64,000 nucleotides of DNA. Origin: Pelagerythrobacter marinus (lineage in GTDB: Bacteria > Pseudomonadota > Alphaproteobacteria > Sphingomonadales > Sphingomonadaceae). This document shows positions 4,571-59,423 of this stretch, one piece after another (positions within the stretch are counted from its first letter, which is position 1; each line of letters starts with the position of its first letter). The stretch covers positions 186,001 to 250,000 of the forward strand of contig NZ_WTYO01000003.1 of assembly GCF_009827515.1 (NCBI RefSeq), read 5' to 3'. A program made the position numbers and the translations under genes. Below the pieces are notes generated by a model. That model worked only from the letters and a program-made list of their open reading frames with translations, did not search any database and had not been told where the DNA came from.

Positions 4571-4587
4571 TTTCTGTCTCTCGCTCC

Positions 4588-5175: not shown

Positions 5176-5298
5176 CAGTTCTGCCTTAGTTCCGACGTGT
5201 CTTGCCCTGATCCGGCCCGCCGCCGGCGGGGAGGACCCCCACACGGCCGTCATCCGCACACATGCGGACGAGGCCCCCCGCGGAGCCGGTTTGGGCGG

Positions 5299-5327
5299 CC
5301 TGTAGACGCGAAAGTCACCGCTGCCAA
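5299..5327 (-). promoter_or_regulatory. Possible sigma-70 promoter of petABC
   Basis: On the minus strand a TTGGCA box is followed after 17 bases by TACAGG, about 125 bases upstream of the petA ATG. The -35 match is good and the -10 is weak. The presumed leader also contains a small TCCGCA/TGCGGA hairpin. The call rests on spacing and position only. Confidence 0.3.
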
Positions 5328-5352
5328 CCGCCTTTTTCGGATGATCGGGGGG

Positions 5353-40165: not shown

Positions 40166-40467
40166 TGCATCTCTCGGTCGCCGGCGCGGGCATCGTTCTC
40201 GTCGCAGGGAACAATGCCGCCGCCGCCTTTGCCACGAGCTAAATCATCAGGGTTAACGATCGGTTCGCGCGCGGCCGGTGCAGATTCGCCAAGCGCCCCG
40301 AATCGCTCGAAATTGCCCGTGTGCCGGCCGTGAATCGGGGCCGCCAGCCGGCGCATCTCGTCGGCGACGGCCAGTCGGGTGACCAGCTCCGCCCACTCGG
40401 GGACCCGCAGCGAACCGCCATCGGCCGTCGAATCGACCACGGCGGGAACGATCTTGCCTTCGTACAT
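40162..40467 (-). CDS. Hypothetical protein co-translated with sciP
   Basis: 101-residue acidic/basic mixed protein with no membrane segment or signal. An N-terminal domain ([11 protein letters not shown] ... [18 protein letters not shown]) is followed by a flexible Gly/Pro-rich tail holding [17 protein letters not shown]. The stop and the sciP start share an ATGA overlap, and the coding frame shows normal high-GC codon use. I do not recognise a named family. Co-translation with a cell-cycle regulator suggests, but does not show, a linked function. Confidence 0.6.
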
Positions 40468-40563
40468 GCCCGAGGGTGTAGGGGCGACATCTCAAGATCG
40501 GGTAAAGCGCGGGTTCGCGCCCCTCCCTTTATGGATAACGCGCCAGCGTGTATGGGCGCGCGC

Positions 40564-41754: not shown

Positions 41755-41839
41755 CCCCGACAAGTCGTCTGCTAGGTGCCGGCACAGTATCCAGACTGCC
41801 CGGCAGTTCCAGACAAACAATCGACAGGTCGAATCGTCA

Positions 41840-43813
41840 GTGAGCGAACAGGTTCAATCGCCCCGTCTTGGCCCCGCTGGCAGCATCGCGTGGCGTCAGT
41901 TGCGCGAGCGCACGCTACGCTTCATTCTGGGTCGGCCGCGGCTTCATCGACAACTTCTGGCCATTCTGTTCGACGCTGCCCTCTGCTTTGCGGCGGTGCT
42001 GATCGCGTTTTCACTGCGCCTCGGGGTGTGGGACCTTGTCTCGCGGCCGATCATGACCTTCGCCGCCATAGCGATTGCCACATGGTATCCCATTGCCTGG
42101 AGAACCGGCGTTTACCGCGCCCTCACGCGCTTTTCAGGCGCCCGAACGATCGCCAATCTCGCAGTGGCTACCGGCCTGATGGCGATTCCGCTGATCGTGG
42201 TTTGCGTGATCTTCCGGTTGCCCGACGTGCCGCGCACGTTGAGCGTCCTTCATCCGATCATATTCTTCCTCCTCCTGGCCTCGAGCCGCATCGCCATTCG
42301 ATTCACGATGCTGGATCTGCTGAAAGCAGTGGATGTGAACGGGAAGCGCGTGCTGGTTTACGGCGCCGGTCGGGCCGGCCAGCAGCTCGCCTTGTCGTTG
42401 AGGCATGAGCCACAGATTCACCTCGTCGGGTTCCTCGATGACGATCTTCGGCTCCACGGACAGAGGCTGGATGGAGCGCCCGTCTTCGGATCCGATCGCC
42501 TTCGCGAAGTCGTTGCCGAGCGGGAGGTGGACGAGGTGCTGCTCGCCATACCCAGCGCGTCGCGTACGCGACGCCGAGCCATAATCGAGACGCTCCAGAA
42601 GGAAGAAGTCTACGTTCGCTCCCTACCGAATCTGACGAACGTGATCGAAGGCAAAGTGACCGTCAGCGATTTGCGCGAGATCCAGATCGAAGAGCTGCTC
42701 GGTCGCGAAGCAGTCGCGCCCAATGAACTTCTGATGGGAAAGACGATCATCGGCCGCACCGTTCTTGTTTCCGGCGCGGGCGGGTCGATCGGCAGCGAGC
42801 TGTGTCGCCAGATCGTGCAATTCCGGCCCTCGCGGCTTGTCCTGCTCGAGCAGTCGGAATACGGCCTCTACGCGATCGAGCAGGAACTCCGCGAATTCTG
42901 CGCAGACGCGGGCGCCAGCGTGCAGATTATACCCGAGCTGGCCAACGCAGCCGAGCGTTCGTCCATGCGACGTGTTTACGCGCGTTACCGGCCCGACACA
43001 GTGTTTCACGCGGCCGCGTACAAGCACGTGCCCCTGGTAGAAGCGAATCCGATAGCGGGTCTTCGCAACAACATCATGGGCACGCTCCATAGCGTCGAAG
43101 CTGCCGAGGAAGTCGGCACCACCCATTTCACCCTCATCAGCACCGACAAGGCGGTACGCCCGACCAACATCATGGGCGCATCGAAAAGGATTTGCGAACT
43201 CATCCTGCAAGCCAAGGCGGCGGAAGAAAGGCGGGGGCCGGTTTTCAGCATGGTGCGGTTCGGCAATGTCCTGGGTTCGAGCGGGTCGGTCGTGCCGCGG
43301 TTCAAGGAGCAGATCGCGCAAGGGGGGCCGATAACCCTGACTCATCGGGACATCACCCGGTACTTCATGACCATCCCCGAAGCGTCACAGCTCGTGATCC
43401 AGGCGAGTGCCATGGCGAAAGGCGGCGAAGTATTCGTGCTGGACATGGGTGAGCCGATCAAGATCGCCGAGCTCGCTTACTCGATGGTGCGGCTGTCCGG
43501 CCTCAGCGTGCGGGACGCGGACAATCCGGACGGCGACATAGAAGTGGTTGAAACCGGCTTGCGGCCAGGCGAAAAGCTGTATGAAGAGCTCCTGATCGGC
43601 AACAACCCGGAACCCACCAATCACCCCCGGATCATGCGCGCGCGAGAAAACCTGCTGCCGTGGAACGATCTGCACGATGCACTGGATGAGCTGAATTCCG
43701 CCCTCCGAGAAACGGGCAGTTCAACGACGGCAGTCCAGATCGTAAGCAAGCTCGTACCCGAATTTGTTCCCAGCAAGGAGTGGTCGAAGCGGTGTGCGGC
43801 ACAAACGCCGTAA
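41840..43813 (+). CDS. pglF: UDP-N-acetylglucosamine 4,6-dehydratase, membrane form (PglF/WbpM/CapD family)
   Basis: Predicted to convert UDP-GlcNAc to the 4-keto-6-deoxy sugar, the entry step to di-N-acetylbacillosamine. The 657-residue protein has four N-terminal helices (about 35-150), a CoA-binding-like Rossmann domain (LVYGAGRAGQQLA near 168) and a second SDR domain (VLVSGAGGSIGSEL near 307). The WbpM-type active-site segment STDKAVRPTNIMGASKR is intact. It begins at GTG. It is the only plus-strand gene of the island and faces the operon tail-to-tail across a 61-base gap. Close relatives also feed QuiNAc/FucNAc pathways, so the role rests on the neighbouring PglE, PglD and Neu genes. Confidence 0.88.
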   Translation: MSEQVQSPRLGPAGSIAWRQLRERTLRFILGRPRLHRQLLAILFDAALCFAAVLIAFSLRLGVWDLVSRPIMTFAAIAIATWYPIAWRTGVYRALTRFSGARTIANLAVATGLMAIPLIVVCVIFRLPDVPRTLSVLHPIIFFLLLASSRIAIRFTMLDLLKAVDVNGKRVLVYGAGRAGQQLALSLRHEPQIHLVGFLDDDLRLHGQRLDGAPVFGSDRLREVVAEREVDEVLLAIPSASRTRRRAIIETLQKEEVYVRSLPNLTNVIEGKVTVSDLREIQIEELLGREAVAPNELLMGKTIIGRTVLVSGAGGSIGSELCRQIVQFRPSRLVLLEQSEYGLYAIEQELREFCADAGASVQIIPELANAAERSSMRRVYARYRPDTVFHAAAYKHVPLVEANPIAGLRNNIMGTLHSVEAAEEVGTTHFTLISTDKAVRPTNIMGASKRICELILQAKAAEERRGPVFSMVRFGNVLGSSGSVVPRFKEQIAQGGPITLTHRDITRYFMTIPEASQLVIQASAMAKGGEVFVLDMGEPIKIAELAYSMVRLSGLSVRDADNPDGDIEVVETGLRPGEKLYEELLIGNNPEPTNHPRIMRARENLLPWNDLHDALDELNSALRETGSSTTAVQIVSKLVPEFVPSKEWSKRCAAQTP

Positions 43814-43829
43814 ACCGGGGACCGGGCCC

Positions 43830-43858
43830 AGCGCCTTCATATCGTGTCCAGAGGCGCT
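43830..43858. terminator. Possible bidirectional stem-loop
   Basis: agcgcct/aggcgct stem with a 15-base loop between the convergent dehydratase and sugar transferase genes. No T-run is present. Confidence 0.35.
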
Positions 43859-43874
43859 AGCCGCATGAATTCCG

Positions 43875-44498
43875 TCAAAAGCTGGATCGTCGAAAGACCT
43901 TGCCAATCGTGGCCACCAGAAATCGCACGTAGGCGCCCAGAGCGGGATGCGATAGCCATCGCCGCTCCAGCGTGACGCGTTCTTCCAGCCCTCCTTCGTT
44001 CGCGTAAACCTGGGCAGGCCCTGTAATCCCCGGCCGCAAAGCATGCCGCTCTTCCCAGTACCCGTCCTGGTAATCGACCTCTTGGGCAGGGGTGTCGGGC
44101 CGAACGCCCACCAGGGACATGTCGCCACGCAGGACATTCAGCAACTGCGGCAGTTCGTCCAGATGCGTCGAACGCAGGAAACGCCCTACCCGGGTAATCC
44201 GCGAATCTCCGGGGACGGTCGTCCTGAACGCCGCCCGCGCGGCTTTTTTCTCCGCGAGCGACCCGGCGGTGCCGCCCTGGGGGGCAGCCGCGGGATCCCA
44301 CTTCATGGTCCTGAACTTCAGTATCGTGAAATGCCTCAGCCCTCTGCCGACGCGAACCTGGCGAAAGAATATCGGGCTGCCGTCGTCGGCCCTTATGGCA
44401 ACAGCGATAAGGAGCATAAGGGGCGACAGGACTACACATGCCAAGGATGCGGCCCCGACGTCCAACAGGCGCCTCATGAAGTCGTCAACGTATTTCAA
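43875..44498 (-). CDS. Initiating phosphoglycosyl transferase (PglC/WcaJ-type sugar transferase)
   Basis: Transfers a sugar-1-phosphate from a UDP-sugar to undecaprenyl phosphate, the first membrane step of glycan assembly. The 207-residue size and single N-terminal re-entrant helix (VGAASLACVVLSPLMLLIAV) match the small monotopic PglC type. The catalytic Asp-Glu pair lies in STHLDELPQLLNVLRGDMSL near 112-131, and VGVRPDTP follows. It starts at a TTG overlapping the polymerase stop (TTGA), with AGGAG eight bases before. With PglF, PglE and PglD present, UDP-di-N-acetylbacillosamine is a reasonable donor. This is the last gene of the operon. Confidence 0.9.
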   Translation of the reverse strand: MKYVDDFMRRLLDVGAASLACVVLSPLMLLIAVAIRADDGSPIFFRQVRVGRGLRHFTILKFRTMKWDPAAAPQGGTAGSLAEKKAARAAFRTTVPGDSRITRVGRFLRSTHLDELPQLLNVLRGDMSLVGVRPDTPAQEVDYQDGYWEERHALRPGITGPAQVYANEGGLEERVTLERRWLSHPALGAYVRFLVATIGKVFRRSSF

Positions 44499-45691
44499 TA
44501 CGCTTGCTCCTGATCGGACGCTGCGACACTCATGGGGCGCAAGTCGCTGATGTAGAGTGACACCGCGTATACAAATGCTACCTGGACTGCCCTGTCCGCC
44601 CCGAACAGCATTGCCTCGGTGAAGCCGCTGCCGATCAGGGCCGCATGCACGGCGACGAGATATGCCTTGCACTCGACCGGAAGCTGTCGCGCAAAGCCGC
44701 GGTGGATCATTTTCAAGCTGCCTATGAACCACAGCGCGGTAAGGAAAATTCCCAGAACACCCAGTTCGACCAGAAACTGGATATAGGTGGAGTGAAAGTG
44801 CGGGAAACCCTGGTCAGTCAGAAGTATCCTGGGAACGATTTCCGAAGACGACCCCCATCCCCATCCGAACCAGGGCCTCTGTTCCCAAAGAGCGATGCCG
44901 CCCTCGTACAACGCGAAGCGCTCTTCGTACGAGTAATTCCTGTTTCGCTCCCATACGTCTTCAAGGAGCGCGAAGTTCACGACCAGGCCCGACACTGCCG
45001 CGGCAACCAGCCCCAACCTCCACCACAAGCTGCGCCACAGGAAAAACAACATAACGCAGATGCTCGAAATGCTCAGAAGTATGTTGATCCGGCTTGTAGC
45101 CTCGATCTGGGCGATGAAGAGAATGCCGATGAAAACCAGGTACCTTGGCTTTCGCGTCTGGATAAAAAGAAAGACGCTGGGGACCACGCCCATTATGACC
45201 AGGAACGTGGAAGCCTCGTTCGCACCTCTTGCGAGGAATATGGCCGGTGCTTCCGTCATTCCCGCCGCGGCAAGCAACAAGCCCAATAGTGCGACAGCCA
45301 CTGCTCCGGCGGCGGAAGCCGCCATCAAACGGTCCATCTGACCGGGCTGATATACGGCAGCGCGAAGCAGAAAGAACATCCCGACATACACAGCAAGCTG
45401 GAGCAGCTCGCTCAGGACTCTCCATCCGGCGTCGGACAACATCGTGGCAAGCACGATGGCGAGGAACACCATGCACACCATGATGAACACCCTGTCGCGA
45501 CGTGGCCCATCCCCTCGCAAGTTCAGGTCGGAAACCAGGAACACGCCGAGCGCGACCAGGGCCAGGTGAATCTGGCCGGCGCCTAGCGCGAAGAAGACCA
45601 TGAAAGGCCGGACGAACCTGAAGGATTGCAGTCGAACAACCGCCAGGAGAAGCGCAAGAGCGGAAATTCCGATGCTTATGATTACATCCAT
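44495..45691 (-). CDS. O-antigen polymerase/ligase family protein (Wzy or WaaL-like)
   Basis: 398-residue membrane protein with about eleven helices and a periplasmic loop containing FGWGWGSSSEI and FHSTYIQFLVELG near 290-320, the PF04932 pattern. It either polymerises lipid-linked repeat units or transfers the glycan to an acceptor. With a flippase and priming transferase in the same operon, Wzy is favoured, but a ligase role cannot be excluded. It starts three bases after the neuC stop, and its own stop overlaps the sugar transferase start. Confidence 0.8.
   Translation of the reverse strand: MDVIISIGISALALLLAVVRLQSFRFVRPFMVFFALGAGQIHLALVALGVFLVSDLNLRGDGPRRDRVFIMVCMVFLAIVLATMLSDAGWRVLSELLQLAVYVGMFFLLRAAVYQPGQMDRLMAASAAGAVAVALLGLLLAAAGMTEAPAIFLARGANEASTFLVIMGVVPSVFLFIQTRKPRYLVFIGILFIAQIEATSRINILLSISSICVMLFFLWRSLWWRLGLVAAAVSGLVVNFALLEDVWERNRNYSYEERFALYEGGIALWEQRPWFGWGWGSSSEIVPRILLTDQGFPHFHSTYIQFLVELGVLGIFLTALWFIGSLKMIHRGFARQLPVECKAYLVAVHAALIGSGFTEAMLFGADRAVQVAFVYAVSLYISDLRPMSVAASDQEQAY
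44507..44511 (-). promoter_or_regulatory. Shine-Dalgarno site fixing the TTG start of the sugar transferase
   Basis: AGGAG on the minus strand, 8 bases before the TTG. It supports the TTG over the ATG seven codons downstream. It lies within the final codons of the polymerase gene. Confidence 0.65.
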
Positions 45692-45694
45692 GTC

Positions 45695-46825
45695 TTAGAA
45701 AGCATTCCGCTTGACTAGAAGTCTGGGGCTCCACTCGATCTGATCAATAGCGGACAGTAGTTCTTCATCCGAACGACCGTCTCCATAGAAATTTTGAAAT
45801 GGCCCTTTTAGAGCCAGCGCCTGGCTCACTGCATTCTGAACCTCCTGCTCGCGAATCTCAGGGCAATCGATCGTATTGTCGTTGCGAAGCCGATCATTCT
45901 GGCGCGAGCCGAGATTGACGCACGGGGTTCCCAAGCTTGCACTTTCTATGATCCCCGACGACGAATTGCCCACGAGCACATCGGCTGCGGCCAGCAGGGA
46001 AAGATAATGCCTTCGCTCGAGGTGCGTCAGCACCACGATGTCGGGATGCTCCCCGACGGCGTCGAGGCTCTGGTCGATGGCCTTGCCTCCTGCATCGGAG
46101 TTGGGGCGCAGAACCACCAGCTGATGACCCAGGCTTTGCAGGGACCGGATCACCGTGCGGATCTGCCCGCCTCCGTCTCCCGCCTCCTGCACCACCGGAT
46201 GGAAGACAACAAGCGATAGCGGCCTGTCCACGCTCAGCCCGTACTCCGACAGTATAGCGCGCCGATCGATGCAGGCGGCTCGCGACCGGCAAAGATCGAC
46301 CAGTCCTGGCGCCCCGATCACCCGTATAGTCTCTGGAAGCTCGCCCATTCGCTTCAGTCGCTGGGCTGCGTCCTCGGTGGCAGGAAAATGAACATGCGCC
46401 AGCTTGCTGATCGCGTGCCGAAGACTTTCATCCAGTGTTCCCGAACGTTCGCCGCCATGGATATGGGCCGTGAAGATGCCGAGATGCACCGCGGCCAGCG
46501 TTGCGGCCAGCATTTCGCCTCGATCACCGAGCACCAGCACCAGATCGGGTCGGTCACGCTCCCATAGATCGATCATGCCGTCCATCTCGACCGTGAAGGC
46601 GCGGGCCATTTCCCCCCCGCTCTCGCCCGTCAGACGCGCGGGTATCTGGGCAGCCAGGCTTAGACCGGCCGCGCGTATATCGTTCACGCTGCTGCCGTAC
46701 TTCTCGAGAAGATGCTGCCCGGTTGCCACGACCGAGAGTTCATGCCGGCTGCCGGCGAGATGCTGCAGACAGCCTCGCATGAGGCCAAAATCGGCGCGAC
46801 TGCCGGACACGTAGTGAATCTTCAT
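45695..46825 (-). CDS. neuC: Hydrolysing UDP-GlcNAc/UDP-diNAcBac 2-epimerase (NeuC/LegG family)
   Basis: Releases UDP while inverting C2, giving ManNAc or, in the legionaminate route, 2,4-diacetamido-2,4,6-trideoxymannose. The 376-residue protein has SGSRADFGLM (7-16), LVLGDRGEML near 97-106, HIHGGERSGTLDE near 119-131 and the UDP-phosphate-binding GNSSSGIIESASLGTPCVN near 291-309, all hallmarks of NeuC/LegG. Sequence alone does not separate the two substrates; the PglF/PglE/PglD genes in the locus favour LegG. It overlaps neuA by four bases. Confidence 0.9.
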   Translation of the reverse strand: MKIHYVSGSRADFGLMRGCLQHLAGSRHELSVVATGQHLLEKYGSSVNDIRAAGLSLAAQIPARLTGESGGEMARAFTVEMDGMIDLWERDRPDLVLVLGDRGEMLAATLAAVHLGIFTAHIHGGERSGTLDESLRHAISKLAHVHFPATEDAAQRLKRMGELPETIRVIGAPGLVDLCRSRAACIDRRAILSEYGLSVDRPLSLVVFHPVVQEAGDGGGQIRTVIRSLQSLGHQLVVLRPNSDAGGKAIDQSLDAVGEHPDIVVLTHLERRHYLSLLAAADVLVGNSSSGIIESASLGTPCVNLGSRQNDRLRNDNTIDCPEIREQEVQNAVSQALALKGPFQNFYGDGRSDEELLSAIDQIEWSPRLLVKRNAF

Positions 46826-47511
46826 GAATCTATGACCCGTAAGCGTGCGTCGACGATCGCTCGCGCCAGAGCGAGATCTTCTTCCTCGTCGATATCGAGA
46901 CTGTCGATGTGGCCCATCACGTAGCCCGCAACGCCATCGGGGAAGAGTGTACCCTGGTCACGAAAAGTCTTCACGTCGCAGAGATAGAGCGCACCGTTCG
47001 GCGCCAGCAAAGGCTCTGCATCCTGACGCCGGGAAACGGAGGGAACGGCCCTTGCGAGCGGCTGTAGCCGGCCAGTTTCATCGGTTGTGAACTGCCAAGC
47101 CGCCGGCTTGCCTTTGCCGACCGAAACCACCGCCGGCGAAGGCGTCCCGTCGTATATCCGCACGGCCTGCCGAATATGTTCTGCCGACCGGAATGGCGAT
47201 GTAGGTTGCAGCAGGGCAAAAGCCCCTGTGGTTTTCGTGGCGGAGAGCGCATGGAGAACCACATCGCTGGATCGCGCCGCCGACGTTGCGAGTTCCGCGG
47301 GTCGCACGAACGGAACCTCGGCGCCAGCCGCCCTTGCGGCCGACATGATCGCTGGACCATCCGTGCTGACGATTACACGCCGGAAGCACCGCGATGCCAT
47401 GGCGGCGCGCACGGTCCATGCGATAAGGGGCACACCGCCGAGCTCGGCGACGTTCTTGCCCGGCAGGCCGACCGAGCCAGCCCTTGCAGTTATGATGGCA
47501 AGATCCAGCAT
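46822..47511 (-). CDS. neuA: CMP-nonulosonic acid synthetase (NeuA/LegF family)
   Basis: Activates the nine-carbon acid with CTP for transfer. The 229-residue product starts LAIITARAGSVGLPGKNV, the mononucleotide-binding signature of acylneuraminate cytidylyltransferases. It has LLQPTSPFRS near 102-111 and the late metal-binding DIDEEEDLALA near 210-220. The ATG chosen shares a base with the asnB stop (TGATG). The longer open frame upstream is the shadow of that gene. No hydrolase domain is fused. The product is CMP-Leg5Ac7Ac by context, or CMP-Neu5Ac otherwise. Confidence 0.9.
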   Translation of the reverse strand: MLDLAIITARAGSVGLPGKNVAELGGVPLIAWTVRAAMASRCFRRVIVSTDGPAIMSAARAAGAEVPFVRPAELATSAARSSDVVLHALSATKTTGAFALLQPTSPFRSAEHIRQAVRIYDGTPSPAVVSVGKGKPAAWQFTTDETGRLQPLARAVPSVSRRQDAEPLLAPNGALYLCDVKTFRDQGTLFPDGVAGYVMGHIDSLDIDEEEDLALARAIVDARLRVIDS

Positions 47512-49415
47512 CAAGGGGCAAGATCCTGCGCCGACCCCACGTCTTGGTGGCTCAGACCATTGCGATCGAGCCAGGCCTGGAGTGCAAGCAACGACCAAAT
47601 GCGGATGGAATGCTCGGCACGGCCCGAAATATGGGCTGCGAGGAGCTGCTCCAAGTCCGTCCGACGCATCATCCCCGCCACGGGCTGTCCCGGATCAAGC
47701 AGGCGACCACGGATGGAAGAAGCCAGTTTGGTGCGGAACCAGTCAGTCAGAGGCACACGGAAACCGTGTTTGGGCCGTTTCGTCACCTCATCCGGCAGGT
47801 ATCGCGACAACAGGGATCTGAGCGGTGCCTTCCCGAGTCCCCCGGCTCGCTTCTCGGCACCCGAGATGGACTGGGCAAACGCAACCATCTCGAGGTCCAG
47901 AAACGGCACGCGGCATTCAAGGCTCGCGTACATGCTAACATGGTCGGTCTTCGGTAGCATCTGCCCCGACAGCTGTCCTCGCATATCGGCCTCGAACATT
48001 GCCGTATCAGACGTCGGCAAGGCCATCATCCAGTCCGGCATATCGGGGTTGACGGTGAGAAGGCGTTCATTGGGCCCGGAAAACGGCCCCGGAATGTACT
48101 CCGGATCGTCCAGAAGCCCAAAACCAACACGGATTCTTCGCAGGTTCTCCGCGAGGCCAGTCGACGGAGAGGTCGGCAGCCGCTGCACGATGCTCCTCGC
48201 CGCGTCGCGCAACTGAGGCGGGAGCCCGTGCCAGCGCCTCTTCCAAGGGGTCAGTGCATGCCGAGGATACCCCTGGAACAGCTCGTCGCCGCCATCTCCC
48301 GACAGGCAGACCTTCACATGGTCTCGCGCAAATCTCGACATCACGAGGAGCGGGAGGCACGCCGGGTCGGCGATGGGCTGATCCATCGCTGCGAGTCCGG
48401 CATCCAGTTCCTCAAGCAAGATGTCCGCATTTACCCGAAGTTCGTGATGCTCGGCATTGCAATGAGCAGCGACGAGCGCAGCCACGTCGGCTTCGTTCGC
48501 CGCAGCGATCCCATGGCCCTCCCCTTCAAATCGGACGGTAAAGGTTCGAGGCGCAAGGCCCATCTGATGAGCAACGGAAACCAGCAGCGACGAATCGATC
48601 CCGCCGGAAAGAAAAAAGCCGACCGGTACGTCTGCGATGACTTGCCGCCGTACCGACGCGAACAATACCTCTTCGAGGTTCCCAGCCCGTGCGGCGGGAA
48701 GAGTGCGCGGCGGCAGATCCTTTGTCTGCCCGTTGGACAGATCGATCTCCATTCTCGCCCCCGGCGTCAGCTTTCGCACCCCTTGAACCAGCGATCCCGG
48801 TTGGGGCACCCAGCCCTGGGCCAGGAACTGGGCGAGCGCGCGCCGATCGATAGCGACGGGAAATTCGAGCGCGCGCAGGGCCGCCAGGATTCCCCGCAGC
48901 TCCGAGGCGAAAAGCACCGCATCGGGGCCTTCCCAAACGTATAGCGGCTTCACGCCTACGGGATCGATACCCAGTTGCAGGCGCCCTCCGCCCGATCCCC
49001 CGTGAAGACCTGCCTCGTCGAGAACCGCATAGGCGTACATCCCGTTGAGCATGTCGTCGAAACGGGGGCCGTCCTGGATATAACCGGCCAGAAGGACCTC
49101 GGTATCGGAACGGGTCCGGAACTGCCAGCCGCGGCGCTTCTGATCCTCCATCAACTGCGCGAAGTTATAGATCTCTCCGTTGAAGCTTAGCGCCACGTTC
49201 CCGTCTGGGGACGACATCGGCTGGGGCGCACCTTCGACGTCGATAATGGCAAGTCGCAAGTGGCCGAGGGCATGACGCTCGGCGACATGACGCCCCTGCC
49301 CATCAGGACCCCGGTGCCCCATTGCATCGAGCATGGCCGTGATCGCCAGGTTCGACCTTGGCGATACGTCGCCCCGGACCGAGGGTCGCCACACCAGACC
49401 GCAAATTCCGCACAT
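47511..49415 (-). CDS. asnB: Asparagine synthetase-like amidotransferase, copy 1
   Basis: 634-residue glutamine-dependent amidotransferase with both halves intact. The N-terminal nucleophile hydrolase domain has Cys2 in MCGICGLV, RLAIIDVEG and SFNGEIYN. The synthetase domain has the PP-loop FFLSGGIDSS near 258-267 and CLSGDGGDELFQGY near 367. In surface-polysaccharide loci AsnB paralogues are thought to amidate uronic acids or attach amino acids, rather than make free asparagine. The ATG overlaps the flippase stop (TAATG), and its stop overlaps neuA. It differs clearly in sequence from copy 2, so the two are not a recent duplication. Confidence 0.88.
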   Translation of the reverse strand: MCGICGLVWRPSVRGDVSPRSNLAITAMLDAMGHRGPDGQGRHVAERHALGHLRLAIIDVEGAPQPMSSPDGNVALSFNGEIYNFAQLMEDQKRRGWQFRTRSDTEVLLAGYIQDGPRFDDMLNGMYAYAVLDEAGLHGGSGGGRLQLGIDPVGVKPLYVWEGPDAVLFASELRGILAALRALEFPVAIDRRALAQFLAQGWVPQPGSLVQGVRKLTPGARMEIDLSNGQTKDLPPRTLPAARAGNLEEVLFASVRRQVIADVPVGFFLSGGIDSSLLVSVAHQMGLAPRTFTVRFEGEGHGIAAANEADVAALVAAHCNAEHHELRVNADILLEELDAGLAAMDQPIADPACLPLLVMSRFARDHVKVCLSGDGGDELFQGYPRHALTPWKRRWHGLPPQLRDAARSIVQRLPTSPSTGLAENLRRIRVGFGLLDDPEYIPGPFSGPNERLLTVNPDMPDWMMALPTSDTAMFEADMRGQLSGQMLPKTDHVSMYASLECRVPFLDLEMVAFAQSISGAEKRAGGLGKAPLRSLLSRYLPDEVTKRPKHGFRVPLTDWFRTKLASSIRGRLLDPGQPVAGMMRRTDLEQLLAAHISGRAEHSIRIWSLLALQAWLDRNGLSHQDVGSAQDLAP

Positions 49416-52146: not shown

Positions 52147-52225
52147 AGGGGCGATCTCTTCGTATCTGGTATGCAATTGCCAGGGCCAAGACCTGCTTGT
52201 GATCAATCCCCCGGCTCAGAACTCT

Positions 52226-53440: not shown

Positions 53441-54066
53441 CGGTTGACGCGTTGCTGTGGCCGCGCCGGAACGCCCGTCCAGGTTCCGCCGTGCGAGATA
53501 TCTCGCGCAACCAGGGCGCCGCCGCCGACGATTGCTCCTGAAGCCACCCGCACGCCCGGGAGGACGACGGCGCCAGCGCCGATCAGGACGCCGTCACCCA
53601 CCACGGCGCCCCCTCCTATCACGGCGCCCGGCGCCACGTGCGAGAAGCTCCCCACGCTACAATCGTGCTCGACGACCGCGTTGGTATTGATAATGGTTCC
53701 CGCACCAATCCTGGCCTCCACGTTTACCACGGCGCCAGCCAGAATTTGCGTACCCTCGGCGATATGATCGGTGTAGACCCGGCCCGGTTCGATGATGACC
53801 GCGGAAGCGATGCGTTCGGCAAGTCGTTCATGCAACTGCCGGCGTCGCTCGTTGTCGCCCAACGTGACAACCACGCGCAGATCGGATCCTGCGGCCAGGA
53901 TGTCCTGGACCGATGCGAATGGGACCGGGTACCCGCAAACGCTCTGCCCCTGCAACGCGTGATCGCAGAAGACAATCGAGCGCACTCCTGCTTGAGTAAG
54001 CTGCGACGCCACGACCCTTCCGTGGCCGCCGGCACCGAACAGGCACACGGCGGGGTCAGGCGACAT
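53437..54066 (-). CDS. pglD: Sugar O/N-acetyltransferase of the PglD/NeuD family
   Basis: 209-residue left-handed beta-helix acetyltransferase with the PglD-type N-terminal Rossmann-like domain (CLFGAGGHGRVVASQL, 8-23). Hexapeptide repeats run from about 100 to 195 and include the catalytic-type histidine in NTNAVVEHDCSVG. In the bacillosamine route PglD acetylates the 4-amino group made by PglE; NeuD homologues instead O-acetylate sialic acid. Context supports the former. The ATG lies 11 bases inside the end of neuB. Confidence 0.85.
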   Translation of the reverse strand: MSPDPAVCLFGAGGHGRVVASQLTQAGVRSIVFCDHALQGQSVCGYPVPFASVQDILAAGSDLRVVVTLGDNERRRQLHERLAERIASAVIIEPGRVYTDHIAEGTQILAGAVVNVEARIGAGTIINTNAVVEHDCSVGSFSHVAPGAVIGGGAVVGDGVLIGAGAVVLPGVRVASGAIVGGGALVARDISHGGTWTGVPARPQQRVNR

Positions 54067-55102
54067 CGGCGTCGCTCACCATCTGATCCTTGCTCACAGA
54101 AGTCGCCAACCGCTGGCCAACGAAGCGGTCGTAACACTCCGGCGCCACCCCTCCGCCGGGTCTCTTCGCGGTGAGATCGCCGGGCCCAAGGACGTGCCCC
54201 TCGGCAAGCGCGCGCCGATAGACCAGGCTCTTGCGAGCGACCGCTCGCACGTCCATTTCGACTTCCCGGGGGCGCTTGACGCCGTCGCCGAGGCCCGCCT
54301 CCACCTGGCGCAGCAGCGTCACCAGGTTCTGGAAGGCATCCGGCTCGAGCGACGCGGAGTGGTCCGGCCCCGGCATACCAGCGTCCAGGGTGAAGTGCTT
54401 TTCCAACACGGCCATCCCCAAAGCCCGGGCGACAAGGGCCGCATGCGGCCCCGCCGTATGGTCGGAAAATCCGACCGGACATTGAAAATGCTGCTGCAGC
54501 ACGGGCAGAACCCGGAGATTCTGATCCTCGATCGCGGCCGGATAATTCGACACGCACTGCAGTATCACAACCGGGACATCGTGGCCGAGCCAGCTACGCG
54601 CCGCAACGATCTCTTCGAAGGTGCTCATGCCGGTCGACAGGATAATCGGCAGCCCCGAACGCCCCGCCAGGTCGAGCAGTGGCTTGTTGGTCATTTCGCC
54701 CGACGCCCATTTTAGACAGACCGGATCAAGCGATACGACAAATTCCAGGCTCGGGGCATCGAAAGCCGTCGAAATGAAATCGATCCCGATCCTGTCGCAG
54801 TGAGCTTTCAGCTCGACAAAGGCAGAAAAAGGAAGCTCGTATTCCTTCAGCATGTCGAACTGCGAGCCGTCGCCCACGTTCCGCGACTGATATTCTGCCT
54901 TGCGGGCCTGCGGCAGTATGAGCTCTTCCGTTACGTAAGTCTGGAACTTTACTGCGTCAGCGCCAGAAGATGCGGCGAGATCGATGAGCTTGTGCGCCAG
55001 CTCGAGGTTGCCGTTATGATTTACGCCTATCTCGGCAATCACGTAGGCAGGATGATCGCCGCCGATCGGGCGCTCGCCGAAATAAAGCAGCGGGGCGTTC
55101 AA
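54056..55102 (-). CDS. neuB: Nonulosonic acid synthase (NeuB/LegI family)
   Basis: Condenses phosphoenolpyruvate with a 2-acetamido hexose to form a nine-carbon acid. The 348-residue protein has the TIM-barrel landmarks AEIGVNHNGNLELA (24-37), DAVKFQTY near 51-58, LKWASGEMTN near 138-147, and a C-terminal antifreeze-like SAF domain (AVARKSLVYRRALAEG near 288). The barrel sequence FISTAFD and SNYPA are typical of the legionaminate/sialate synthases. The TTG start overlaps the aldolase stop (TTGA) and has GGGAG seven bases upstream. Confidence 0.93.
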   Translation of the reverse strand: MNAPLLYFGERPIGGDHPAYVIAEIGVNHNGNLELAHKLIDLAASSGADAVKFQTYVTEELILPQARKAEYQSRNVGDGSQFDMLKEYELPFSAFVELKAHCDRIGIDFISTAFDAPSLEFVVSLDPVCLKWASGEMTNKPLLDLAGRSGLPIILSTGMSTFEEIVAARSWLGHDVPVVILQCVSNYPAAIEDQNLRVLPVLQQHFQCPVGFSDHTAGPHAALVARALGMAVLEKHFTLDAGMPGPDHSASLEPDAFQNLVTLLRQVEAGLGDGVKRPREVEMDVRAVARKSLVYRRALAEGHVLGPGDLTAKRPGGGVAPECYDRFVGQRLATSVSKDQMVSDADVA

Positions 55103-55935
55103 GACTCATCTCCCTTTCGCGCGCGAATAAGCTGCGCCACATCGAATACCCGATCACGGGTCGCCACACGATTGTGCTCCAGCCCCTCCGCATCCATGGC
55201 AAGAAACCGTAGATAGATGGCCCGCAATCGCGCCATCTCATCGGGGAAATCAATGCTTTTCTTCAGCTCGGCGAGATTTTCCGGATTGCGGTGAAATGTC
55301 TGACTGAGGATCGCGGCCGTCGAACCCAACCGGACATGCTCGCCCAACAGGAACTCGGGGCTCACGATGCCTTCACGGGCGCGCGCCAGTCCTCCAATTC
55401 CGAACCGGACGCCCGCATTCCTCAAGGCAGCGCAAGGCTCCTCGAGATAGCCGTTCGCCAAGGGTTCGAACAAGAAGACATCCCCCAGGTCGAGGTGCAA
55501 GTCGTTCAGGCCGATGTGCAACCTTCGCAGTCCAAGCTGTTCCACCATATCCGGCAGGGCCGCGACCGACCGCGCCGTTTCGAAGAGTGGGACCGGCTCA
55601 GCCCGGTCGCCGAGCAGATCGAGGAACCGCGCAAGGGTGTCGATATCGTGGAACATGGGGAGCATGACAGCGTCGGCTCCCCTGGCGATCACTTCGTCGA
55701 GCTGAGCCTTCGTACCGTCATGGAGCGGATCGATCCGCACGAGCAGTTCGGCATCGCCTACGACGCCACGGATCCGGCTCACGTCCTCGATGTCTTGCTG
55801 GCTTTTCCAGGTACCCAGGTGTCCCTGGCGTTCGGCCTTCCCCAGTCTTTCGAGATCCACCATAGGCGTGACGCCCTTGTCCCGGCATATGTACCGGGCG
55901 ATCTCCGGATCACTCAGGATCATCAAGAACTGCAC
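55099..55935 (-). CDS. HpcH/HpaI aldolase/citrate lyase-like protein
   Basis: 278-residue predicted TIM-barrel enzyme. RIDPLHDG, ARGADAVMLPMF, the metal-ligand Glu in LFETARSV and the Asp in GLNDLHLDLG follow the order of the HpcH/HpaI class II pyruvate-aldolase family. The Arg, Glu and Asp positions used for metal and pyruvate/oxaloacetate binding seem preserved. The family is not part of known legionaminate or bacillosamine pathways. Between asnB2 and neuB it might form or cleave a keto-acid intermediate or decoration, or supply a pyruvate-derived unit. It starts at GTG with AGGAG five bases before. The function is unknown. Confidence 0.75.
   Translation of the reverse strand: MQFLMILSDPEIARYICRDKGVTPMVDLERLGKAERQGHLGTWKSQQDIEDVSRIRGVVGDAELLVRIDPLHDGTKAQLDEVIARGADAVMLPMFHDIDTLARFLDLLGDRAEPVPLFETARSVAALPDMVEQLGLRRLHIGLNDLHLDLGDVFLFEPLANGYLEEPCAALRNAGVRFGIGGLARAREGIVSPEFLLGEHVRLGSTAAILSQTFHRNPENLAELKKSIDFPDEMARLRAIYLRFLAMDAEGLEHNRVATRDRVFDVAQLIRARKGDES
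55110..55114 (-). promoter_or_regulatory. Shine-Dalgarno site for the TTG start of neuB
   Basis: GGGAG on the minus strand, 7 bases before TTG 55102, inside the end of the aldolase gene. Confidence 0.55.
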
Positions 55936-55940
55936 AAAGT

Positions 55941-55945
55941 CTCCT
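55941..55945 (-). promoter_or_regulatory. Shine-Dalgarno site for the GTG start of the aldolase gene
   Basis: AGGAG on the minus strand, 5 bases before GTG 55935. An ATG four codons later would be too far away, so the GTG is preferred. Confidence 0.6.
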
Positions 55946-56006
55946 GATTTTTACGCGTGTGCCAGCAGCAGCGGTCGGACAGCAGCGCATCGTGTCGATG
56001 GCGAGA

Positions 56007-57842
56007 TTACCCAAACGGGCGATAGGGGGCGGCAGCTTTCTCCAGCCAGACAGGGTCCTGGTCGATGAACAAGCGAAACCATATCTCGAGGGAGATCAAG
56101 GCCCGTATCTGCCGGGTATAGTTGTGAGTCCCGTGTATGTGGGCCTCCAGCATCTCCGAAAGCTTCCGGCTTTCGACCAGCCCCCGGCTTTCCAAGCGCC
56201 CGTCCAGCAGCAGCTCCCTGCAATAGCCCGCCAACGACTGGCGGAACCATTCGCCGATCGGCACGGTAAACATCTGCTTCTTTCGCCATGTCAGGGCGTC
56301 ACCGAGAAGATCGCGTACGGCCAGCTTGTAGATCGCCTTGGTTTCCTGACCTTGCAGTTTCATGGCACCGGGCACGGAAAACGCGAACTCTGCCATACGG
56401 TAGTCTAGAAAGGGCGAACGGACCTCCAGCGAGTTGGCCATTGCCATCCTGTCCGGCTTTACGAGATTGTTGCCCGGAAGGAGGATCGCGGTTTCCGCAT
56501 GGAGAACCTGGTTGATGGGGTCTCCGCCGGGAGCGCGCTGCATCTCCTTCAACAGCGCGCGATACGGGTCCGTCTCGCGAAATGCCGCAGCCAGCTCGCC
56601 GCTCAGCAACTGTTCGGGTTCGTCGTCCAGCAACAGGCCCGACTGCCTCGCAAAGTCATCCTGCCAACCTTCCGGAAGGTCTTCGGTCCCGCTGGCAAAA
56701 AAGCGTGCGTACTTCTCATAGCCTGCAAACAGCTCGTCGCCGCCGTCGCCGGTGAGTACCATCTTAACATCGCGGGCAGCGAGCGCCGAAACCTGATACA
56801 TTGGGATGAAGGACACATCGCCGTGCGGCTGGTCGACGTGCCAGATGAATTTCGGCCACAGCTCGGCAGCTTCGTATTCCGTGACGCGCCGCTCGTGCAA
56901 GGTTCCGAAACGCCTGGCCGCGGCCCGGGCATGGTCGCTCTCGTCAAACCGTGGATCGTCGAACCCGATCGAGAAGGTGCGAACGGGGTCCGTCTGGTAC
57001 ATGCTCATGAACCCGACCACGGACGAACTGTCGAGCCCACCCGAAAGGAACGCGCCGAAAGGCGCATCGGCCCGCATCCTTATGCGAGTTGCATCGTCGA
57101 GAAGAGCCAGAAGACCCGATTTCGCCTCGGCTTCGCTCATGTCCCGCTCGACCGCCACGGCGCTCAGGTCCCAGTAGCGAGTCAGACGAATGCCAGCCGG
57201 CGTTATCTCCGCCCAATGCGCTGGCGGCAGGTGTCGAATACCCTCGAAGGCGGTTTGATCGGGCGGTATATAGTTGAGCGCAAGATACTGTGCGATTGCA
57301 TCCAGGTCCGGTGACCGCTCGATCCCTGTCGCCAGCAACGCCTTGATTTCAGATCCGAACCAGAGCCGGCCTGATTCCGGATCGCCCGACAGATAGAGCG
57401 GCTTGACGCCCAGCCGATCACGATACAGCCGAAGAGTTCCGCCCTCGTCGCGACCATCGTAGACGGCTATCGCGAACATCCCGTTGAGACGCGTTACGAA
57501 ACCCGGGCCCCACGTCTCGTAGGCTCGCAGCAAGACCTCGGTGTCACCGCTGGTTGAAAAGCGCGCGCCCTCTCTCAGCAGCGATTCCCGCAGTTCCAGA
57601 AAGTTGTATATCTCTCCGTTCTGGACCAGCACGATCTGGCCGTCTTCGGAGAAAAGGGGCTGATCGCTCCTTTCGCTGAGATCGATGATCGAAAGACGAC
57701 AGTTCCCGACCGCCGCACGCTCGTTGTTCCAGACGCCGCGGGCATCGGGCCCGCGGTGCCAAATGGACCCGGCCATTTCTTCCAATACTGCTGAATCGAA
57801 ATCTTGCGCGCGAAACGAATAACCGCCGAAAATGCCACACAT
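56007..57842 (-). CDS. asnB: Asparagine synthetase-like amidotransferase, copy 2
   Basis: 611-residue glutamine-hydrolysing amidotransferase. The catalytic Cys2 is in MCGIFGGYSF, RLSIIDLSERSDQPL and NGEIYNFLELR follow, and the synthetase PP-loop is AFLSGGLDSSS near 262-272 with VLTGDGGDELFAGY near 370. It is of the type common in capsule and O-antigen loci. The ATG shares one base with the aminotransferase stop (TGATG). Seventy-one bases separate it from the aldolase, the largest gap inside the operon. Confidence 0.88.
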   Translation of the reverse strand: MCGIFGGYSFRAQDFDSAVLEEMAGSIWHRGPDARGVWNNERAAVGNCRLSIIDLSERSDQPLFSEDGQIVLVQNGEIYNFLELRESLLREGARFSTSGDTEVLLRAYETWGPGFVTRLNGMFAIAVYDGRDEGGTLRLYRDRLGVKPLYLSGDPESGRLWFGSEIKALLATGIERSPDLDAIAQYLALNYIPPDQTAFEGIRHLPPAHWAEITPAGIRLTRYWDLSAVAVERDMSEAEAKSGLLALLDDATRIRMRADAPFGAFLSGGLDSSSVVGFMSMYQTDPVRTFSIGFDDPRFDESDHARAAARRFGTLHERRVTEYEAAELWPKFIWHVDQPHGDVSFIPMYQVSALAARDVKMVLTGDGGDELFAGYEKYARFFASGTEDLPEGWQDDFARQSGLLLDDEPEQLLSGELAAAFRETDPYRALLKEMQRAPGGDPINQVLHAETAILLPGNNLVKPDRMAMANSLEVRSPFLDYRMAEFAFSVPGAMKLQGQETKAIYKLAVRDLLGDALTWRKKQMFTVPIGEWFRQSLAGYCRELLLDGRLESRGLVESRKLSEMLEAHIHGTHNYTRQIRALISLEIWFRLFIDQDPVWLEKAAAPYRPFG

Positions 57843-59335
57843 CAGACCAGGTTCTCCGTCAGGATGGACCGCACCGCGGCAATAATTCTGTCCTGCTCCG
57901 CCACGGTCAGGTTGGACCCGGTGGGAAGGCACAAGGCTCGCTGGAAGTGCGCAGCCGACACCGTGACCTTCTCGGAATGGGGAGCGAATGCAAAACCATG
58001 GCACAAGGGCTGCATGTGCAGGGGCTTCCATCCCGGGCGCGTCTCGATGCCGCCCTGTCGAAGCTTTCGCATGATCTGATAGGGATGGATCGCCAGGCGG
58101 TTGGGGTCGAATTCAATCGATGTCAGCCACCGGTTCCCGAGTGAGCGCGGACTATCTTCCTGAAAGGCAATGCCTGGAAGATCGCTCAACCCCGCCTTGT
58201 AACGCTCGAATATCGCGCGACGTGCCGCCACTCTGTCGGACAAGACGTCGAGCTGGCCCAGCCCCACCCCGGCCAGGATGTTCGACATGCGATAGTTGTA
58301 TGCGATCGTGCCGTGCTGGTAATGCTCTACCGGATCGCGCCCCTGCGTCGCGAGATAACGCGCGCGCTCTGCGATCTTCGGATCGTCGGTGACCAGGGCT
58401 CCCCCGCTCGAGGTGGTTATGATCTTGTTGCCGTTGAACGAATAGACACTGATCACGCCATGCGCCCCGCTCGGGCGATTGTCATAGACCGCACCCAAGC
58501 TCTCGGCGGCGTCCTCGACCAGGGGCAGGCCATGTTCTTCCGCGATCGTCAGGATTTCCCCCACATTCGCGGACTGTCCATAGAGATGAACCAGGAGGAT
58601 CGCCGCGCCTTTCCGATCACTCGCGGCATCGGCTTCAATCTGCCGACGCAGTGCCCCGGGCGACATGTTCCAAGTACCAGGTTCGGCGTCGATGAGGACC
58701 GGTTCGAGACGTTCGTACAACAGCGGCTGTACGCTCCCGACAAAAGTCAGGTCCGAAACGTATACCCGCGCACCGCGCGGCAAGTTGAGCGCCCGCATGG
58801 CAAGGTGCAGGCCGGCGGTCCCGGATGAAACGGCAACGGCATGCTCCCTTGTGCTGAGAACCGCCAGACGTTTCTCAAACGCGTCCAGGTTGGGGCCCGC
58901 AGGCGCGACCCAGTTGTCGTCGAACGCCTGCTGTACGTGTGCCGCCTCGCCACCTCCCATATGGGGTGGGGACAAAAGGATCGCCCCGCTGAGCATTCCG
59001 CGATCGACCAGATCGACCGGCTCCCCCGCCGCATCCGTCACAACAAGTGCATTGACGCCATGCCGGTCCATTTCCTGAAGCAACTGAGCAGGCGCGGTCT
59101 TCTCCGGCACCGTAACGGCCCGCTGGGGAGGAAGGCATGAAATGGCATCGTCCAGCAAGGCGCCGCCCAGCAAGGCCCGGCGAATGTCGCCGTCTGTCAC
59201 GGTCCGAAGAAGACGTCCCCCTTCGTCCAGCACCAAGCCAAGCTTGATCCTGTTGCGATCGAGACGGGCCATCACGGTGCGGATGCTGGCGTCAGATCGC
59301 ACGATAGCGCGCTGCAAGGTGTCGTTATCGGTCAT
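57842..59335 (-). CDS. pglE: CBS-pair/PglE-type sugar aminotransferase fusion
   Basis: 497-residue two-part protein. Residues ~5-118 are a CBS pair (IRTVMARLDRNRIKLGLVLD, TDGDIRRALL, MDRHGVNALVVTDAAG) like the one on nucleotidyltransferases of nonulosonate loci. Residues ~130-495 are a DegT/DnrJ/EryC1 aminotransferase. It opens LLSPPHMGGGEAAHVQQAFD, which closely resembles PglE, and has a PLP lysine in SFNGNKIITTSSGG. It should make UDP-4-amino sugar from the PglF product. The fusion suggests nucleotide control of the first committed step. It is the first gene of the thirteen-gene operon. An in-frame GTG 16 codons upstream is less likely as start. Confidence 0.87.
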   Translation of the reverse strand: MTDNDTLQRAIVRSDASIRTVMARLDRNRIKLGLVLDEGGRLLRTVTDGDIRRALLGGALLDDAISCLPPQRAVTVPEKTAPAQLLQEMDRHGVNALVVTDAAGEPVDLVDRGMLSGAILLSPPHMGGGEAAHVQQAFDDNWVAPAGPNLDAFEKRLAVLSTREHAVAVSSGTAGLHLAMRALNLPRGARVYVSDLTFVGSVQPLLYERLEPVLIDAEPGTWNMSPGALRRQIEADAASDRKGAAILLVHLYGQSANVGEILTIAEEHGLPLVEDAAESLGAVYDNRPSGAHGVISVYSFNGNKIITTSSGGALVTDDPKIAERARYLATQGRDPVEHYQHGTIAYNYRMSNILAGVGLGQLDVLSDRVAARRAIFERYKAGLSDLPGIAFQEDSPRSLGNRWLTSIEFDPNRLAIHPYQIMRKLRQGGIETRPGWKPLHMQPLCHGFAFAPHSEKVTVSAAHFQRALCLPTGSNLTVAEQDRIIAAVRSILTENLV

Positions 59336-59423
59336 GCAAATCCACAAAGATAAACCCGGAGAAGAAGTCCGGCCCTCGGGCACGAAAAGGTCAGTATCGT
59401 TTCGTCAGCAACTTACAAGGCAT

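Follow-up and report, generated by a model that had tools for sequence, protein, structure and literature searches.

A probable UDP-linked route to a CMP-legionaminic-type acid in an apparently acquired surface-polysaccharide island of Pelagerythrobacter marinus

Gene content and borders of the island

The window, i.e., the whole stretch of 64,000 nucleotides of P. marinus DNA that was analysed, contains an island of 14 genes (41705..59423) inserted at the 3' end of mnmA. The first gene, located on the + strand, encodes a PglF-type UDP-GlcNAc 4,6-dehydratase (41840..43813; PF02719, 384 bits; best PDB match PglF 5bju, 296 bits). The other 13 genes lie on the - strand and encode an initiating sugar-phosphate transferase of uncertain start (43875..44519; Bac_transf PF02397, 181 bits), a Wzy/O-antigen-ligase-type membrane protein (44495..45691; PF04932, 55 bits), a NeuC-type hydrolysing 2-epimerase (45695..46825; TIGR03568, 355 bits, cut-off 235.9), a NeuA-type CMP-nonulosonate synthetase (46822..47511; CTP_transf_3, 76 bits; PDB 1eyr, 132 bits), a first AsnB-type amidotransferase (47511..49415; PF00733, 270 bits; N-terminal Cys and SGGIDSS), a MurJ-family flippase that is probably a Wzx (49415..50980; PF03023, 67 bits), a GT4 glycosyltransferase (50980..52149; PF00534, 101 bits), a GT-B-fold protein that may be a glycosyltransferase and matches no Pfam family over its cut-off (GTx; 52226..53440), a PglD/NeuD-type acetyltransferase (53437..54066; TIGR03570, 177.4 bits, cut-off 160.8; VEHDC motif), a NeuB-type nonulosonate synthase (54056..55102; PF03102, 266 bits, and tree placement), a divergent HpcH/HpaI/CitE-like barrel protein (Ald; 55099..55935), a second AsnB-type amidotransferase (AsnB2; 56007..57842; PF00733, 311 bits; N-terminal Cys and SGGLDSS), and a fusion of a CBS pair with a PglE/LegC-type aminotransferase (57842..59335; PF00571, 42 bits; PF01041, 297 bits). 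The original prediction had described a single operon, which is inexact given that pglF lies opposite to the other 13 genes; a flippase and a Wzy/ligase-type protein are present for the flippase and the polymerase that it announced. The CBS module, the ald gene, the two asnB genes, and the insertion borders had been overlooked in it.

By blastn, the island is a 17,719-bp insertion at the junction between mnmA and a serine hydrolase gene, which adjoin in all six other genomes of the genus examined. In one relative of the genus the matching site has 16 bp instead of the island, the alignment being continuous up to window position 41704 and resuming at 59424. The G+C content of the island is 0.613, and its two sides have 0.678 and 0.719. 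No direct repeats of at least 20 bp were found at the borders, the sole repeat pair of at least this length being internal and formed by the two asnB genes, and no integrase or recombinase gene was found among the 14 island genes. The mnmA side was considered as a possible hot spot for polysaccharide genes; within the family, an initiating transferase gene occurs within 20 kb in only two of the 20 mnmA-side stretches (L171 and L174). The island appears to be a horizontally acquired surface-polysaccharide cluster. A further genome of the family (G180) and two loci of the class sample likewise have their clusters adjoining mnmA.

The pathway genes point to a UDP-linked route

Family matches confirm that the six enzyme types of the UDP-linked CMP-legionaminate pathway (PglF, PglE/LegC, PglD/NeuD, NeuC, NeuB, and NeuA types) are all present between 41840 and 59335, as originally predicted; of the GDP route, no full-length PtmE and no close LegB were found in the genome. 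The dehydratase carries the motif STDKAVRPTNIM at the place where the PseB reference has STDKASSPVNLY; we take the Met/Tyr difference at this motif to separate PglF from PseB and, judged by sequence, the motif is of the PglF rather than the PseB kind. The best PDB matches of the aminotransferase are 1o61 (257 bits) and the PglE structure 4ztc (255 bits).

A Campylobacter-like GDP-linked route (PtmE plus LegB), with the missing genes elsewhere in the genome, would agree with the aminotransferase scoring highest in NCBIfam against TIGR04181 (LegC), at 318.6 bits and below the cut-off of 420. This route is, however, highly improbable, because a PglF-type dehydratase lies inside the island, NeuC falls on the opposite side of its tree, and the genome of the strain has neither a full-length PtmE (best match 30% over residues 131-235 of 359) nor a close LegB (best match 30%, compared with 57-66% identity to the same reference for the LegB proteins of GDP-type loci). 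The lack of these two genes supports the predicted UDP-type route to a CMP-nonulosonate. The cluster does not belong to the pseudaminate pathway either, as judged from its scores for PseB (152 bits, cut-off 408), PseC (226 bits, cut-off 424), and PseI (240 bits, cut-off 340), and no PseG-type protein was found among the 14 island genes. Nevertheless, curated NCBIfam cut-offs are also missed by NeuB (TIGR03569, 377.8 bits, cut-off 399.65) and NeuA (TIGR03584, PseF, 126.6 bits, cut-off 205.7) and, together with that of the aminotransferase, these misses count against the UDP-linked legionaminate reading that we favor. In addition, a PglF-like gene is found in only about half of the loci with the CBS fusion, and also in two LegC loci.

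Two NeuC clades follow two cluster types

The trees were quick searches with SH-aLRT support only. The loci L054 and L068, which are copies of a plasmid cluster, were dropped, as were NeuB/PseI rows of at most 250 aa and NeuC rows of at most 250 aa or at most 31% identity. In the NeuB tree, the label of a CBS-aminotransferase in locus L047 came from an aminotransferase cut at the locus edge, and this row was counted as Pse.

In the NeuC tree, the nine rows from LegB/LegC loci all fall on one side, and the NeuC of the window falls on the other with all 18 rows from loci having the CBS-aminotransferase (16) or Ald alone (2); the split has SH-aLRT 99. Among NeuC rows added later, the six of known cluster type were all on the expected side, and two more had no known type. 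Thus, the two NeuC clades follow the two cluster types, an association that looks new at the sequence level. Four columns that separate the clades were considered as readers of the nucleotide and rejected: E. coli K1 NeuC, whose substrate is UDP-GlcNAc, has the GDP-side letter at two of them, and therefore the columns are taken as clade markers only.

The NeuB of the window lies outside the Pse clade and has Gly at a residue that is Phe in all 13 Pse rows. The NeuB proteins of CBS-fusion loci do not form one clade (six changes on the tree). The NeuB of the Acinetobacter locus L063 was rejected as an anchor for Leg, its E. coli relatives being annotated as pseI. The NeuB and NeuC of E. coli K1 are placed with the LegB/LegC rows in their trees, and human GNE falls on the side of the window.

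As to a grouping with sialate enzymes, which would contradict the original prediction, NeuB does not lie with Pse enzymes and NeuC joins clusters with the same aminotransferase; on the other hand, both sialate references of each tree have long branches, and the trees alone therefore do not separate Leg from Neu5Ac. For this reason the NeuB tree was rejected as a proof of Leg against Neu5Ac. It is the gene content that disfavors Neu5Ac, which we consider an unlikely product.

The CBS module and the initiating transferase

The CBS part of the aminotransferase shares 35% identity with the CBS of a PtmE. Among 35 aminotransferase rows, 24 (22 of them distinct) have a CBS pair, and these are the ones with a link to nonulosonate or Ald/AsnB2 genes. 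All eight PtmE rows have a CBS pair as well, but none of 11 LegC rows does, nor does any of the remaining 11 aminotransferases in the class sample. These last are found beside an initiating transferase (8/11) and an acetyltransferase (8/11), with no NeuA, NeuB, NeuC, or Ald gene near them in the stretch read. The other class-sample genomes that have the CBS fusion contain both NeuB and NeuC (3/3). In the genome G301, an 8.2-kb contig carries the fusion and AsnB2 without an Ald. What looks new is where the CBS pair sits in the loci read, the aminotransferase carrying it in clusters of the UDP type and PtmE in those of the GDP type.

We propose a nucleotide-sensing role for the CBS pair at the step where UDP-4-keto-GlcNAc is first committed to the nonulosonate; the CBS of PtmE could play the same role in the GDP route. 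If this reading were true, it would give a direct handle on how bacteria throttle nonulosonate synthesis and on the enzyme to which a sensor domain becomes attached once a pathway switches its nucleotide. Together with the NeuC clade, the CBS position would also allow UDP-type and GDP-type legionaminate clusters to be told apart by sequence.

The initiating transferase had been called a PglC-like primer. A Bac_transf protein is indeed there, but the label is loose because in PDB it matches WbaP (95 bits) better than PglC (83 bits), and by sequence it is not closest to PglC among the known initiating transferases. It belongs to a clade of transferases from loci with Ald (SH-aLRT 98), and a separate clade (SH-aLRT 96) holds seven of the eight transferases from bacillosamine-only clusters. 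This separation weakens the predicted dual use of UDP-bacillosamine as the lipid-linked first sugar and as the nonulosonate precursor. The presence of both kinds of genes in one island favors such a dual use, and PglC is a real, although weaker, match of the transferase. Against it, and besides WbaP scoring higher and the clades being apart, relatives of the transferase occur beside LegB/LegC (L070 and L078) or PseB/PseC (L074); this counterevidence is limited in that L070, a LegB/LegC locus with a transferase of the same clade as that of the window, also has a PglF-like gene (37%) and the L074 transferase is outside the tree. On balance, we regard the dual use as improbable.

The same observations bear on the possibility that the island has two outputs, where PglF, the aminotransferase, PglD, and the initiating transferase would make a bacillosamine-primed glycan and NeuC, NeuB, and NeuA would make Neu5Ac from UDP-GlcNAc. 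In favor of it, the NeuC protein exceeds the NeuC_NnaA cut-off, the NeuB and NeuC of E. coli K1 do not separate cleanly from the Leg-type rows, and NeuD-type proteins can also O-acetylate. A conflict over neuD is recounted in PMC3766260, in the passages cited here. Nevertheless, we consider two outputs unlikely, given that the aminotransferases of bacillosamine-only clusters in the class sample have no CBS (0/11), the initiating transferases of such clusters form another clade, the CBS-fused aminotransferase goes with NeuB and NeuC, and NeuC splits by cluster type.

Ald recurs with AsnB2 in nonulosonate loci

Ald scores 16 bits against PF03328, below the gathering cut-off of 25, and is thus outside this family; it had no match in Pfam at 0.001 and no sequence match in PDB at E 0.01. 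Its predicted model (pLDDT 91.6) has the HpcH/HpaI-CitE barrel fold, and residues R67, E119, and D145, which by their role we take to be the active-site triad of the superfamily, are invariant in 24/24 rows. By its predicted fold and these residues, Ald belongs to the HpcH/HpaI-CitE superfamily (PEP/pyruvate barrel with an R/E/D site). In 19 of 23 loci, Ald is accompanied by a neighboring AsnB2 homologue (47-69% identity). The GTx model (pLDDT 91.0) has its best Foldseek matches in UDP-GlcNAc 2-epimerases and then in GT-B enzymes.

Ald recurs with AsnB, the GT-B protein, and an initiating transferase, whether the neighboring genes are of the Leg or of the Pse kind, and this set is found in Alphaproteobacteria, Betaproteobacteria, and one Armatimonadota bin, in a genome survey of Ald plus nonulosonate genes that left out the genomes of L068, L079, L081, and L086. 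No Ald was found in 58 other relatives searched; G180, of the same family but outside those 58, has one at 41%. The recurring association of Ald with nonulosonate loci looks new from gene neighborhoods. The set points to a step or a residue of nonulosonate glycans that is so far undescribed, and we suggest that Ald and AsnB2 might make or modify part of the nonulosonate-bearing glycan, in a role downstream of, and independent of, nonulosonate synthesis.

Alternatively, the product may be a variant of Leg5Ac7Ac, such as its 4-epimer, its 8-epimer, or an amidated or N-acyl derivative, and Ald and the two AsnB proteins could modify it. Variants of Leg5Ac7Ac are known, and Roseobacter relatives have an N-acetyl sugar amidotransferase, HisF, and HisH beside the same genes. 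This trio was not seen in the island, however, and the closest solved aminotransferase, PglE, makes the D-gluco isomer. A variant product is a serious possibility, if somewhat short of an even chance. It overlaps with our preferred reading, which names the type of sugar and leaves its isomer unspecified.

Proposed pathway

We conclude that the island is probably a surface-polysaccharide cluster gained by horizontal transfer, in which a CMP-legionaminic-type acid would be made through UDP-linked intermediates as in Legionella and Bacillus, including the CBS sensor and the Ald/AsnB2 roles proposed above. UDP-GlcNAc would be dehydrated by the PglF-type enzyme and the product aminated by the CBS-aminotransferase; PglD-type acetylation would then yield UDP-diNAc-bacillosamine or its 4-epimer, from which NeuC would take off UDP while inverting C2. 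NeuB would add PEP and NeuA would then add CMP. The nonulosonate would be placed on an undecaprenyl-linked unit begun by the non-PglC initiating transferase, and the MurJ-type Wzx and the Wzy would flip and join these units, respectively.

More tentatively, and with the odds rather against it, Ald may represent a new pyruvate-barrel family acting with AsnB2 on a building block of nonulosonate glycans (Leg via UDP or GDP, or Pse), and the CBS pair a portable end-product feedback sensor that moved between PtmE and the aminotransferase, each time on the committing enzyme. No paper joining CBS placement, NeuC clades, and the Ald set was found in the open-access literature searched.

Comparison with known systems

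The UDP route had been presented as a departure from what is known, but it is not new, having been described before in both L. pneumophila and B. subtilis (PMC6137143, PMC7439481, PMC3766260; in the passages cited here). Since the pathway itself is known, the value of the island lies in its variant: the CBS fusion, the NeuC clades, and the Ald set. The L. pneumophila legionaminate cluster, as described in passages of PMC3766260 and PMC6137143, comprises the aminotransferase, neuD, neuC, neuB, and neuA with the dehydratase elsewhere and, by this description, shares with the island all six enzyme types and the use of UDP-linked precursors. The island differs by having the dehydratase inside, a CBS-fused aminotransferase, and the added Ald and AsnB2.

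In B. subtilis, the sps genes were assigned to a UDP-linked route to CMP-Leg by mutants and pglF complementation; they serve the spore surface (crust), and the passages of the article cited here describe no comparable module (PMC7439481). SpsE (1vli) is, by a small margin, the top PDB match of the window NeuB; at the C2 site, the residue is Gly in the window NeuB and Tyr in SpsE. As for Ald, the HpcH/HpaI aldolase and CitE superfamily has the fold and the R/E/D triad in common with it, but Ald differs in its Pfam score under the cut-off, in lacking a PDB sequence match, and in sitting with nonulosonate genes.

The GDP-type Leg clusters on plasmids of Azospirillum, Sulfitobacter, and Aestuarium share NeuC, NeuB, NeuA, the acetyltransferase, and a homologous CBS pair within the pathway, but their CBS is on PtmE, LegB replaces PglF, and their NeuC belongs to the other clade. 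The clusters of Pseudohalocynthiibacter pRR4-35_2 and of a Roseovarius pelagicus plasmid add the amidotransferase/HisF/HisH trio and export genes and, unlike the island, show no PglF-like gene in the 40 kb read; they have the same order aminotransferase(CBS)-AsnB-Ald-NeuB as the island, with identities of 58, 69, 55, and 61%, respectively.

Gene content and predicted pathway

The stretch at 41840-59335 contains 14 genes, a pglF-type gene on the plus strand and 13 genes on the minus strand. The complete pathway gene set proposed by the original prediction was confirmed, since all six proteins were named by Pfam and NCBIfam searches and the PDB sequence matches agree. The dehydratase matched PglF (5bju, 296 bits), the aminotransferase matched PglE (255-257 bits), and NeuC matched an Acinetobacter 'GDP/UDP-diNAc-bacillosamine 2-epimerase' (170 bits) better than human GNE (153 bits). 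NeuB gave a near tie (SpsE, 167; PseI, 164; SiaC, 161-162 bits), and the matches of NeuA were CMP-NeuAc synthetases; NeuB, NeuA, and the aminotransferase scored below the curated cut-offs of their best-fitting NCBIfam models. The dehydratase carries the motif STDK...NIM, whereas the PseB reference carries STDK...NLY. A CMP-legionaminic-type pathway is likely here, but it is of a known kind.

The genome encodes a single NeuB. Its clade has seven members (SH-aLRT 100), and every other member belongs to a locus with a CBS-aminotransferase, a CBS module fused to a PglE/LegC-type enzyme (57842..59335 in the window, minus strand); in genome G180, the fusion lies on a neighbouring stretch. The 13 pseudaminate (Pse) rows are on their own side of the tree (SH-aLRT 100). 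One NeuB site has been described as Gly in Neu and Leg enzymes and Phe in Pse enzymes (PMC7371886); at this site, numbered here as in that paper plus 1, the window NeuB has Gly and 13/13 Pse rows have Phe. Two other loci encode a second, divergent NeuB in long open frames of 749 aa (L037, 13000-15246) and 774 aa (L039, at 13.1 kb), the former with a weak CBS-like match at its N-terminal end (E 5e-4).

The NeuC tree has two sides (SH-aLRT 99), one with 9/9 LegB/LegC rows and the other with 18/18 rows from CBS-aminotransferase (16) or Ald-only (2) loci, these types being assigned from gene content alone. The window and G180 proteins are on the latter side. In a second tree, with eight rows added and two sialate references removed, the added rows of known type took the expected side (4/4 CBS-type; 2/2 LegB/LegC), and two Acidovorax rows without known type joined the CBS side (SH-aLRT 100). 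A simple reading of these clades is weakened because the sialate references, E. coli K1 and human, have long branches and fall one on each side of the split, and because the clade-specific columns in K1 NeuC do not track the nucleotide.

An acquired island at the mnmA site

The genes mnmA and serine hydrolase adjoin in 6/6 other genomes of the genus examined: five have a gap of about 350-364 bp between them and the sixth a gap of 1371 bp, compared with 18.0 kb in the window. Identity to the site of G201, a relative within the genus, extends up to 41704 and resumes at 59424, so that 17,719 bp replace 16 bp. The G+C content is 0.613, against 0.678 and 0.719 in the flanks, and no border repeats were found at the island ends. 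The stretch is an acquired island. In G180, G420, and G306 (loci L033, L104, and L105), as in the window (40411-41754), mnmA is found no more than about 20 kb away from the Ald/CBS-aminotransferase genes, which may reflect a shared hot spot or an old neighbourhood.

The CBS fusion

The N-terminal part of the aminotransferase, residues 1 to ~110, is a CBS module homologous to the one carried by PtmE (35%, E 3e-7). Among the loci read, CBS is present in 24/35 aminotransferase rows (22 distinct), 8/8 PtmE, and 0/11 LegC. PtmE was seen at 9 of the 11 LegC loci and LegB at 10, and the stretches read around the fused loci showed no PtmE and no LegB at 45% or above. This distribution indicates that there is one CBS module per pathway, placed on PtmE in the GDP route or on the aminotransferase in the UDP route. 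Both steps would be committing, and CBS may bind the end product. Among the matches listed, a literature search gave no paper pairing 'CBS domain' with 'legionaminic' or with 'nonulosonic'.

In a class sample of 289 genomes, drawn regardless of nonulosonates, a close aminotransferase occurs in 15 and its CBS part in four of these, the own genome among them. All 11 CBS-less aminotransferases come from this sample; eight have an initiating transferase nearby, eight an acetyltransferase, and NeuA/B/C or Ald were not seen in the stretches read. The three other fused loci have AsnB2 alongside (3/3) and Ald too in two, and their genomes encode NeuB and NeuC elsewhere (3/3).

In the alphaproteobacterial loci L106-L116, a CBS-less PglE-type aminotransferase occurs with an initiating transferase and a PglD-type acetyltransferase but with no nonulosonate genes; these loci probably make bacillosamine-primed glycans. 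At locus L103 (G301), the AsnB2 homologue adjoining the fusion (4329-6215) starts with MSGIFG instead of MCGIFG, so its glutaminase Cys seems to be replaced.

The Ald set

The aldolase-like protein Ald (55099..55935, minus strand) scored 16 bits against PF03328 (cut-off 25) and had no match among PDB sequences at E 0.01. Its predicted structure (pLDDT 91.6) is a pyruvate barrel near HpcH/HpaI, CitE, and pyruvate kinase, and R67, E119, and D145 are unchanged across 24 rows. Scanning 84,980 species genomes for Ald identified 23 loci. Homologues of the amidotransferase AsnB2 (56007..57842, minus strand) lie nearby in 21 (in 19 of them at 45% or above), and the CBS-aminotransferase occurs in 13; GTx or a homologue accompanies Ald at 20 loci, and an initiating transferase does so at 19. 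A nonulosonate gene is present at 20/23; of the remaining three, two are contigs only 4 and 6 kb long, and the third has NeuC ~5 kb past the stretch. NeuC exceeded the family cut-off in 18/19 Ald-bearing genomes asked and in 2/14 control genomes. The exception among the 19 is Acidovorax delafieldii, where PseB and PseC adjoin Ald, and at loci L070 and L078 LegB/LegC adjoin it. Since Ald stands beside UDP-type, LegB/LegC, and Pse genes, the set goes with nonulosonates and not with one route.

We tentatively propose, with low confidence, that Ald would most likely form a small hydroxy-oxo acid, or act on the pyruvate-derived end that every nonulosonate has, and that AsnB2 would then amidate. The T. 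forsythia cluster described in PMC6120980 offers a precedent for AsnB within such a cluster; its authors link this AsnB putatively to the acetamidino group, and the glycan also includes a uronamide.

A second AsnB of the window (47511-49415) shares 34.6% identity with AsnB2 and 57% with a relative at the Brevundimonas locus L070. Loci L053 and L054, on Roseobacter-group plasmids of different genera, are near-identical whole-cluster copies, and both also have export genes and, alongside, an NRPS-like set.

Glycan assembly proteins

The 'PglC-like' primer of the original prediction is indeed an initiating transferase, but its PDB sequence matches place it nearer WbaP than PglC. It clades with five others from Ald loci (SH-aLRT 98), and a separate clade (96) holds 7/8 bacillosamine-set transferases, a separation at the level of these clades and not of the deeper branching. 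GTx (52226..53440, minus strand) has no Pfam family; its modelled GT-B fold makes it a candidate glycosyltransferase, no more.

Comparison with known routes

The window's own genome was searched for GDP-route genes; PtmE was not found at full length, and LegB had no close match. The UDP route had been regarded as a departure from known systems, a claim that earlier publications take away. PMC6137143 describes two known bacterial routes, of which that of L. pneumophila is UDP-linked and that of C. jejuni GDP-linked. For L. pneumophila, PMC3766260 reports an aminotransferase, neuD, neuC, neuB, and neuA with a dehydratase outside, the first three steps being termed 'likely', and in B. subtilis the precursors were shown to be UDP-linked and an spsM mutant was restored by pglF (PMC7439481). 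What looks new here is the CBS module on the aminotransferase, the division of NeuC into clades, and the Ald set, which together make a variant of a known pathway that is worth testing.
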